Positions 44,672-47,593 of a DNA stretch of 64,000 bases are shown here, piece after piece. The notes beneath the pieces are model-generated. The model had not been told where the DNA came from, searched no databases, and was given only the letters and a program-made list of their open reading frames with translations. The stretch's first letter is position 1; each line of letters begins with the position of its first letter. The DNA is taken from contig NC_014363.1 of assembly GCF_000143845.1 (NCBI RefSeq), positions 1,597,186 to 1,661,185 on the forward strand, given 5' to 3'. The position numbers and the translations under genes were made by a program. The DNA is from Olsenella uli DSM 7084. Its GTDB lineage: Bacteria; Actinomycetota; Coriobacteriia; Coriobacteriales; Atopobiaceae.

Positions 44672-45250
44672 CTATGCCACGCCGTCCTCGGTCTCGAGTC
44701 TCGGCTTGATGATTCCATAGCCACCATTATGGCGGTGGTAGATGACGTTGATGAGACCGGTGGTCGCATTCTCGAAAACATAGAAGTCGTGCCCTATGAG
44801 GTCGGTCTGGACCAGGGCCTCCTCCTCGGTCATCGGCCTGAGGTCGATGAGCTTCTCCCTCACCAGGGCATCGTCCTCGTCCACGATGAGGTCTGCGAGG
44901 TCGTCGCTGCTCGAGGGCACGGGCATGGGAACCGGGCGCTGCCTGCGGTCGATCACGCGCGTCTTGTACTTGCGCAGCTGGCGGGCGACCTTGTCGGCCG
45001 CCTCGTCGATGGCGGCGTACATGTCGGCGCTGCTGGCCTCGACACGCACCACGTTGTCGCGGACGAACACCGTGACCTCGCACATCTTGCGGTCGGGGTT
45101 CGAGGGGTTCTTGTCAACGCGCAGCACTACGTCGCAGGTCATGGGCTTGATATCGAAAACCTTGAGGGACTCGCCGACCTTCTCGTTCACATGGTCGCGC
45201 ATGGCGTCCGTCACGGAGACTTTGCGTCCTGAGATCTTGATGTCTACCAT
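44672..45250 (-). CDS. hpf: Long-form ribosome hibernation promoting factor HPF
   Basis: A 192-residue long HPF/RaiA. The N-terminal ribosome-binding domain (VDIKISGRKVSVTDAM, VTVFVRDNVVRVEASSADMY and IDEAADKVARQLRKYK) is followed by a linker and the C-terminal dimerisation domain (PMTEEEALVQTDLIGHDF and YVFENATTGLINVIY). It makes 100S ribosomes in stationary phase. The ATG has GAGGAGG. The position close to comFC and a structured RNA matches the context of the raiA-motif RNA. Confidence 0.92.
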   Translation of the reverse strand: MVDIKISGRKVSVTDAMRDHVNEKVGESLKVFDIKPMTCDVVLRVDKNPSNPDRKMCEVTVFVRDNVVRVEASSADMYAAIDEAADKVARQLRKYKTRVIDRRQRPVPMPVPSSSDDLADLIVDEDDALVREKLIDLRPMTEEEALVQTDLIGHDFYVFENATTGLINVIYHRHNGGYGIIKPRLETEDGVA

Positions 45251-45405: not shown

Positions 45406-46377
45406 CTACATCGTCACGGCGTTCGAGCCGGCACCGTCGACGCCGGCAGCGTTCGTGTCAGTCCCCTCCCCCGCGGACGACCCCGTCGCCGAGCCGGCGG
45501 ATGTGGTTGCCTCGGGAATGTTTCTGACCTGGGCTCCGGCACCCAGGGACTCCAGAGACCCCACCCAGCGGGTGCGCTCGAGGTCCATGATGCCGTTGGA
45601 CTGGATGGCCTCCAGGGCAGACCTCACGGCCGAGAAGAGCTCGGAGTTCGTGCGCGCGACGCCGACGCCGACAGCGGCGGGCGCGTCGAGCGTACCGGCA
45701 AGGCTGATGTCGTCGTATGCCTTTGCCAGGTAGGCGCCAGAGTAGGCATCGCACAGGACGTAGTCGACCTTTCCCGCCTCAAGGTCGGCAAACGCCTCGT
45801 TGAGGTTGCTGTAGCTGGCCCGCTCCACCACGAGGCCCGTGTTGCCGAGGGTCTTCTCGGACACGGAGCCTGCCTGCAGTCCCAGCTTCTTGGACGAGAG
45901 GTCCTCGATCTTGGCCACGCCCGTCGAGCCCCTGCGGAAGAGCGCGGCTGCGGACTCGGCGTAGCTGCCGGCGAGCACGGCGGCGTTGGTGTCGCTCCCC
46001 TTCATGCCCATCACGACGTCGCAGCTCTGACCCAGAGAGGAACCCGCATCGCTGACATCGACGAACTTGACCCTGAGGCCCAGCTCGTCACCCAGGGCGT
46101 AGGCAAGCTCGACGTCGAGGCCCTGCACCTGGCTCCCGTCCGAGGTGATGCAGAACGGGGCCGTCGAGGAGGAGGTCCTGAGACCCACCGTGAGGTAGCC
46201 TGCCTCGACGAGTGCCGAGGCATCGACCTTGGGGGACAGCGACGCGGCATGGGCGGCCTTGGCGTCTGGGACGGAGGTGGTCTGGACGCCTGGCAGACCA
46301 TCGCAACCGGTGAGCAGCAGGGCGAGGGAGAGGGACGCCGTCGCCGCAACGGACCTGAATGTGCCTGTGTTCTTCAT
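45406..46377 (-). CDS. Amino-acid ABC transporter solute-binding lipoprotein
   Basis: A 323-residue extracellular solute-binding protein of family 3. The lipoprotein signal peptide ends in LLLTGCDG (acylated Cys about residue 24). The core shows LTVGLRTSSSTAPFCITSDG, GLDVELAYALGDELGLRVKF, AGSVSEKTLG and DLEAGKVDYVLCDAYSG. It should capture an amino acid or similar compound. No permease or ATPase gene is adjacent, so it is an orphan binding component. It sits between the structured RNA and hpf. Confidence 0.85.
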   Translation of the reverse strand: MKNTGTFRSVAATASLSLALLLTGCDGLPGVQTTSVPDAKAAHAASLSPKVDASALVEAGYLTVGLRTSSSTAPFCITSDGSQVQGLDVELAYALGDELGLRVKFVDVSDAGSSLGQSCDVVMGMKGSDTNAAVLAGSYAESAAALFRRGSTGVAKIEDLSSKKLGLQAGSVSEKTLGNTGLVVERASYSNLNEAFADLEAGKVDYVLCDAYSGAYLAKAYDDISLAGTLDAPAAVGVGVARTNSELFSAVRSALEAIQSNGIMDLERTRWVGSLESLGAGAQVRNIPEATTSAGSATGSSAGEGTDTNAAGVDGAGSNAVTM

Positions 46378-46450: not shown

Positions 46451-46707
46451 GCGTTTTACCCAGCTGACCTGGTATTTGACCCCACACTCGCACACCGGGG
46501 CTCTCGCTTCGGGACTGCACGGTCCCCCACTGATGGCCCTCTCGCCCGTGAGGCTGGACGCCTCGGCTTGGTTTCGGGCGGTGCGACTTACTTCTAGGAC
46601 GAGCCATGCTCGCCCGGGTGCGCACACCCGGGCTTACGTGGATCCTTTCGGCCTCGTCTGCCATGAACTAGGGCTTGCGCCCGCAACCACAGACCTGGGT
46701 AAAACGC
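46451..46707 (-). ncRNA. Structured non-coding RNA, candidate raiA-motif RNA
   Basis: The minus-strand transcript is closed by an exact 13-bp terminal helix: GCGTTTTACCCAG at the 5' end (46707-46695) and CTGGGTAAAACGC at the 3' end (46463-46451). Inside are many hairpins: GGGC-GCAA-GCCC (GNRA loop), CC-GAAA-GG, GCCCGGGTG-TGCG-CACCCGGGC, GAGGC-GTCCA-GCCTC and GGGAC-CGTGCA-GTCCC. An extended -10 promoter lies directly upstream. There is no open frame. raiA-motif RNAs are known near comFC and hpf genes in Firmicutes and Actinobacteria, matching this position. The family assignment is inference; the structured RNA itself is well supported. Confidence 0.65.
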
Positions 46708-46737: not shown

Positions 46738-46767
46738 CCCAGGGCACGGCGAACGTCGTGCCCTGGG
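46738..46767 (-). terminator. Terminator-like hairpin after comFC
   Basis: CCCAGGGCACG and CGTGCCCTGGG form a perfect 11-bp stem with an 8-nt loop between the comFC stop and the RNA promoter. It would separate the two transcripts. No U-tract is present. Confidence 0.6.
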
Positions 46768-46792: not shown

Positions 46793-47593
46793 CTACCACA
46801 CGCGTGCCAGGGCACAGCCGCCCACCTCGGCAGCGCCCGACGAGATGAGCGCGCGGGCACAGGCCCGCATGCTTGCGCCCGTGGTGACGATATCGTCCAA
46901 CAGCAGGAGCCGGGCGCCGCGCACGTCGTCGACCACATGCACGCCGCCCTCGAGGTTGGCCGCACGCCCTCGCCTGTCCAGCGTGCGCTGGTCCCGAGCG
47001 GGATCGCGCGCCAGGACGTCAGCCACGGGAAGGGCCAGCTCCGCCGCAAGGGCGCGGGTCACGAGCTCCATGTGGTCGAAGCCCCTGCGCAGGCACGCCG
47101 CCTGGGTTGCCGGAACGAAGCAGAGCGCGTCGACCCGATCCGCATCGAAGCGGGCGTTCCCGTCGGGTGCGGCCCATGCCGACGCCTCGTCCAGGGACGT
47201 CGCCATGGCCGACGCCAGAACCGGCGCGAGCCGAAGCTCGTGCTCGTCCTTCAGGACCGTGGCCATGCGCGCTGCCGTGCCCGCGAACACGAGGGCGCAG
47301 GTGGTCGTGCGCAGCTCCCAGTCCCCCGTGCACTCCGTACAGGTGAGCCAGCCGAACGGGGCGCCACAGACGGGACAGGCCCAACGCTGGCCTATCCACG
47401 CAAGGTGGGTGCGGCACTCCTCGCACAGCAGGCTGCCGGGCGCATTGCAGCGAACGCAGCGCGTGGGCCAGACGAGTTCCTCTCCCCCGGAGAGCAGGCC
47501 GCCATGCAAGGTATTGCCAAGGGCATCATGCAGTGGGTCGCACAGGGCATCGCGTAGCAGCGCCTCCAGCCTCGTACCAGCATGAAAAAGCAC
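46793..47593 (-). CDS. comFC: ComF family phosphoribosyltransferase-like protein
   Basis: A 266-residue ComFC protein. An N-terminal zinc-finger region has CVRCNAPGSLLCEEC and CPVCGAPFGWLTCTEC. The C-terminal phosphoribosyltransferase fold has the PRPP motif LLLLDDIVTTGASM and a preceding RGFDHMELVTRALA. ComFC supports DNA uptake for transformation; the reaction is not settled. The GTG at 47593 follows CAGGAGG. It lies between tatD and the structured RNA. Confidence 0.85.
   Translation of the reverse strand: MLFHAGTRLEALLRDALCDPLHDALGNTLHGGLLSGGEELVWPTRCVRCNAPGSLLCEECRTHLAWIGQRWACPVCGAPFGWLTCTECTGDWELRTTTCALVFAGTAARMATVLKDEHELRLAPVLASAMATSLDEASAWAAPDGNARFDADRVDALCFVPATQAACLRRGFDHMELVTRALAAELALPVADVLARDPARDQRTLDRRGRAANLEGGVHVVDDVRGARLLLLDDIVTTGASMRACARALISSGAAEVGGCALARVW

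Follow-up and report, generated by a model that had tools for sequence, protein, structure and literature searches.

A raiA-motif (ModT) RNA ahead of a solute-binding lipoprotein gene in Olsenella uli

The minus-strand segment 46451–46707 of the stretch of O. uli DSM 7084 DNA analysed here (64,000 nucleotides, hereafter the window) is supported as a genuine member of the raiA-motif (ModT) RNA family in its usual neighbourhood. When the window was compared with all 4227 Rfam families by cmscan, the model RF03072 (raiA) matched at 46455–46703 with 167.8 bits against a gathering cut-off of 101.3 (E = 2.4e-42), covering model positions 1–209 of 209, and the only other match at gathering cut-offs was one tRNA. 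The earlier note on this DNA had proposed a likely raiA-motif RNA, to be checked with Infernal and the Rfam models; the significant full-length match, a comFC gene upstream, an hpf/raiA gene two genes downstream and the covariation described below all agree with that proposal. The O. uli genome (2,051,896 bases, one contig) contains a single copy. An identity as 6S, SRP, tmRNA or RNase P RNA was rejected, as the window has no match to these at gathering cut-offs. That the element is one of these other structured RNAs, or a terminator region of comFC, would fit its position and size alone and is already refuted by raiA being the sole match here among the 4227 families, so that we regard this explanation as practically untenable. 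The kind of RNA found here is already known, and its likeliest mode of action, which we consider probable, is that of a structured RNA that would be freed from the 5′ end of a longer transcript and act in trans.

A raiA RNA was found in 284 of 296 Coriobacteriia genomes, almost always in one copy, and in 76 of 198 genomes of a draw from the phylum Actinomycetota. Two genomes (G186 and G119) have two matches each. Laxer filters left the same 12 class genomes unmatched, and a thirteenth (G221) gave, when rechecked, one partial match below the cut-off. Since eight of the 12 also lack any hpf match, most of these absences look like assembly gaps, and true losses of the RNA in the class were rejected as their explanation. 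The locus comparisons below use 66 class loci, namely the window and 65 stretches that were hand-picked from among the matches listed, at about one for each genus and without prior knowledge of the surrounding genes.

Covariation was assessed in an alignment of 81 sequences, comprising the window, 65 sequences from the class and 15 from other Actinomycetota, and the counted structure combined the published description with the window's own pairing. Over 14 counted helices, 95.0% of 5198 cells are paired and 43 of 65 pairs have changed on both sides. None of 500 alignment shuffles reached any of the covariation measures, and sliding the partners by one to three columns lowered pairing to 31–45% (every control at most 44.5%). 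Some of this difference is to be expected, since it was the window to which the structure had been fitted. The earlier note had looked to relatives for covariance support, and the structure covaries strongly across these 81 sequences. The folding energy of the 257-nt minus strand is −120.9 kcal/mol, compared with a mean of −100.9 for shuffled sequences (z −4.0), and none of 200 dinucleotide shuffles folds as well.

The fold is compact and is closed by the helix P1, pseudoknot 1 and a putative second pseudoknot, all elements lying on the minus strand. The 13-nt arms of P1 (46695–46707 and 46451–46463) are exact reverse complements, as the terminal helix had been described. The outer three pairs of P1, which lie beyond the Rfam model, covary in the 81-sequence alignment, and the extension past the Rfam ends has on average 3.1 pairs, compared with 1.2 for pairings between flanks taken from different loci. 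The optional hairpin P2 (46671–46682; 4 bp) sits at the turn from P1c to P3, and all three of its counted pairs have changed on both sides. Its GCAA loop and the UGCG loop of the 9-bp hairpin P5 (46612–46633), as read from the sequence, are a GNRA and a UNCG-like loop of the kind that had been pointed out before. All six counted pairs of P5 have changed on both sides, with pairing at only 56–84%. In P3a and P3b (46643–46667), 100% of the cells are paired. The P3 loop (46653–46659) and the pk-loop (46597–46603) form pseudoknot 1, in which 92.8% of the cells are paired and four of seven pairs have changed on both sides. Six of these seven pairs are standard in the window; the exception is A46659 × C46597, the first pair, which is nonstandard in 41 of the 81 sequences, the window included. 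In the alignment, the letters of the window's pseudoknot 1 are unlike the ones found in most relatives from other families, and they are compensated. The two arms of P4 (46636–46641 and 46482–46487) pair with each other and are nearly invariant (99.8% of cells paired). The domain P6-P7-P8 (46491–46585) is placed by the covariation alignment, with pairing of 100% in P6, 99.5% in P7 and 98.1% in P8a. The putative pseudoknot 2 would consist of two almost invariant pairs (95.1% of cells paired), which were placed from the published text, not from coordinates.

These features can be compared with the C. acetobutylicum raiA RNA, for which cryo-EM structures are available (entries 9CXF and 9ELY; PMC11751092, PMC12286853). 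The passages of these papers describe the same pseudoknot between the P3 loop and the pk-loop and the same stack of P4 and P5, and, judging by the description in PMC11751092, the P6-P7-P8 domain of O. uli corresponds to the larger variant reported there. In passages of PMC11706538, the C. difficile RNA is without P2, whereas the O. uli RNA carries it.

Mechanically called open reading frames overlap the RNA, and in the window one opposite-strand frame is free of stops throughout it. But among the relatives no frame is open through the RNA in more than 11 of 66, in keeping with the previous statement that the region has no coding potential. The lengths of the RNA in the 66 loci range from 220 to 317 nt and fall in all three phases.

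The RNA lies directly behind an extended −10 element, TGTTATAAT (46720–46712, minus strand), as had been noticed before, and a transcript from it would start about 5–7 nt further on, at the base of P1. Just upstream of the RNA, 66 of 66 class loci have a −10 hexamer that agrees with the consensus in at least four of six letters, and TG precedes it in 56, while control searches at four upstream offsets gave such an element in only 5–9 of 66 loci. The outermost base of P1 follows the −10 by a median of 6 nt in the 66 loci, which puts the first nucleotide of the RNA at the base of P1 or immediately beside it. A consensus scan, which requires a −35, found no promoter with a good −35 ahead of the RNA. 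No intrinsic-terminator-like site was found between P1 and the start of the downstream solute-binding protein (SBP) gene in any of the 62 class loci with such a gene. Just upstream of the raiA promoter, an 11-bp perfect hairpin without a T-run (46738–46767, minus strand) follows comFC and might stop or slow down the transcription of that gene.

From this geometry we infer the following course of events. Transcription would start at the P1 foot from the extended −10 promoter, so that the first nucleotides of the RNA would pair with its last. Because no intrinsic terminator lies behind it, transcription would probably continue into the lipoprotein gene and perhaps into hpf, with the RNA as the first part of a longer transcript. 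A stable species of the kind known from clostridia would be released once this transcript is cleaved and trimmed as far as P1. The released molecule would be a stable regulatory RNA that acts in trans, probably together with a protein, and tunes how cells go from growth into stationary phase. The trans action would follow from published clostridial work, in that the passages of PMC11706538 describe ModT of C. difficile as abundant, stable and complemented in trans, and the family as occurring in non-spore-formers as well. These passages also report a long isoform in C. difficile that bears a terminator, whereas the O. uli RNA has no intrinsic terminator and lies about 77 nt before the lipoprotein gene.

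The genes around the RNA in the window are, in order, comFC, the raiA RNA, a solute-binding lipoprotein gene, hpf and degV. The comFC-like gene upstream (46793–47593, minus strand) has matches to PF00156 and PF18912. The first gene downstream (45406–46377, minus strand) encodes an SBP_bac_3 protein (PF00497, 39.6 bits) with a lipobox cysteine, and its start codon lies 77 nt after the Rfam 3′ end of the RNA. It is followed by hpf/raiA, coding for a long-form ribosome hibernation factor (44672–45250, minus strand; PF02482 and PF16321). Both comFC and hpf/raiA lie within 2 kb of the RNA on the same strand, and these Pfam assignments confirm the neighbours that had been recognised earlier as a raiA context. 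Overall, the locus shares with raiA/ModT (RF03072) the full-length model match, P1–P8, pseudoknot 1, a predicted promoter of its own, comFC upstream, and hpf/raiA and, as in print, a periplasmic-binding protein gene downstream. The suggestion that the lipoprotein gene is a new association was rejected, because a passage of the review PMC11477304, citing earlier work, already describes raiA RNAs as often preceding either the gene for RaiA or one for a periplasmic-binding protein whose specificity is unknown; the link is known in kind. What we add are the class-wide SBP counts without a terminator, the order of an ABC operon, the placement of the −10 and the presence of the RNA in genomes without a detectable GGDEF domain. 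In the passages of PMC11706538, PMC11751092, PMC12286853 and PMC11477304 that were covered, the class-wide counts, the operon order and the zinc-finger gene described below were not found.

In 62 of the 66 class loci, the first gene recognised behind the RNA encodes an SBP. This gene starts a median of 34 nt, typically 31–37 nt, after the Rfam end, and within 60 nt in 53 of the 62, with start codons that were chosen by rule and look wrong in a few cases (L039, L040, L050, L052). In family f2, the RNA and the SBP gene stand together in all 11 loci where hpf lies outside the fetched stretch. In a separate search, the SBP of the window had a match in 20 of 21 relatives, and the best match adjoins a raiA RNA in the eight genomes whose coordinates were compared (G241, G290, G015, G168, G225, G004, G197, G256). 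Such close spacing throughout the class speaks for at least coupled expression. It also counts against an action in trans, since it is closer than the passage of PMC11477304 describes and resembles that of a cis-acting leader. Like the riboswitch leaders of amino-acid transporter genes, the RNA is a structured element directly before a solute-binding protein gene, and Rfam itself gives RF03072 the type Cis-reg; riboswitch. Together with the lack of a terminator between RNA and gene and the persistence of the pair in family f2, this could mean that the RNA of the class is a riboswitch-like leader which controls expression of the SBP gene on sensing a nutrient. We nevertheless consider such a cis-acting role unlikely. 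Four of the 66 loci (L042, L044, L114, L115) keep a high-scoring RNA without an SBP gene, which differs from riboswitch leaders and fits a role in trans or beyond the SBP gene, and rescue in trans has been published for two clostridia, according to passages of PMC11706538. Moreover, the Shine-Dalgarno sequence is not hidden in excess, with a mean unpaired value of 0.451 compared with 0.412 for shuffled raiA and a lower value in 21 of 54 cases. Regulation by hiding the ribosome-binding site of the SBP gene accordingly gave no signal and was set aside, in a comparison based on MFE-type folds, which are a weak test for pseudoknotted RNA.

A further point against a cis-acting leader is that the downstream gene varies by lineage, being an SBP, zinc-finger or hpf gene. 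None of the 15 loci from other Actinomycetota has an SBP gene downstream. Outside the class, 80 raiA loci without P2, mostly from Bacillota, were collected from among the matches listed, a set in which RNAs with P2 are not seen; the 3′ end was found in 75 of them, and 60 had at least 700 nt downstream. The first recognised gene within 700 nt in these 60 loci is hpf in 25, a zinc-finger gene in 21 and an SBP gene in four, with none in 10. The zinc-finger gene, which stands behind raiA in many Clostridia, encodes a small protein that contains two zinc fingers of the treble-clef type (PF13451, PF23477) and, among the matches listed (L116–L195), often starts some 40 nt behind P1.

Two published handles on raiA/ModT function, sporulation and c-di-GMP, both come from clostridia; in C. 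difficile, loss of ModT raises c-di-GMP, which the passages of PMC11706538 link to the spore defect. No GGDEF domain was detected in 31 of 119 class genomes. In the 20 listed of these 31, none was detected even at E 10 (controls positive in 9 of 14), and all 20, when rechecked, have a raiA RNA above the cut-off. The output reported for C. difficile, c-di-GMP, is therefore unlikely to be the conserved output of raiA, and in these genomes the RNA must do something else unless c-di-GMP is made by an enzyme outside PF00990. The O. uli genome itself has one GGDEF match. Three of these 20 genomes (G044, G056, G082) are 1.5–1.7 Mb in size, 99% complete and assembled into one or two contigs, so the core role can be sought there. 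The Coriobacteriia as a whole are not known to make spores. The host species in particular is described as non-sporulating in an abstract on O. uli VPI D76D-27C and differs in this from the spore-forming clostridia. Judging from the relatives, these observations suggest that the basic job of raiA/ModT needs neither spores nor c-di-GMP. The class is thus a cleaner system for studying the core role of the RNA, which is nearly universal there: spores play no part, and some members of the class have no detectable GGDEF proteins either. The tight link between RNA and SBP gene suggests nutrient status as the factor to examine.

In 23 of the 66 class loci, a complete polar-amino-acid ABC operon, consisting of the SBP (SBP1), a second SBP (SBP2), a permease and an ATPase, stands behind raiA (L075, L077, L078–L098); 21 of these loci belong to deeper families of the class and the other two to family f6. 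The O. uli permease closest to the raiA-linked ones is encoded away from the raiA locus (G000:C1:1542956–1543675), where it is fused to another SBP. In the permease tree it branches among the raiA-linked permeases, a placement that is moderately supported (90/99 and 91/97). On this evidence from sequence comparison, the ABC transporter seems to have moved elsewhere in the O. uli genome, leaving the first SBP with the raiA RNA. An arginine that is present in 16 of 23 SBP2 proteins is missing in 62 of 62 SBP1 proteins, its column being a gap in 18 of the 62 SBP1 rows and having an R within three to four columns in four. This arginine binds the carboxylate of the amino acid. Since a residue typical of amino-acid SBPs is absent throughout, SBP1 appears to be no ordinary uptake protein.

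The missing arginine, the class-wide linkage and the presence of SBP genes near raiA in 6 of 75 non-class loci among the matches listed (from Negativicutes, a Natroniella and one unassigned Bacillota) would all agree with the RNA and the nutrient-binding lipoprotein being a functional pair that serves the same growth decision and is kept together for that reason. We give this explanation only a slim chance, because co-transcription alone could hold the two together, most loci outside the class are without an SBP gene, and permeases from the two phyla form no common group. The idea that the raiA-linked amino-acid ABC operon of Coriobacteriia and Negativicutes arose only once was rejected, as the permease tree does not join them, although its deep forks are weak.

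The trans-acting RNA that we prefer could also be part of a wider picture, in which a conserved raiA/ModT job independent of sporulation and c-di-GMP would be tied, in Coriobacteriia, to a nutrient-binding lipoprotein. The RNA would then be the released 5′ head of the mRNA for an SBP without the usual amino-acid-binding arginine, left behind when the ABC transporter moved, and both would act on one nutrient-dependent growth decision. We consider this combination improbable as a whole.

In nine loci (L078, L080, L081, L083, L084, L086, L088, L092, L094), the second SBP behind raiA looks circularly permuted by the order of its motifs, with the stretch of the arginine motif at the C-terminal end, preceded by the aspartate motif, whereas these motifs usually come in the opposite order. 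The fused SBP-ABC permease gene of O. uli (G000:C1:1542956–1545152, L270) codes for 771 amino acids and has an ATPase gene beside it. Also next to this fusion lies a likely glutamine synthetase gene, which was named by eye.
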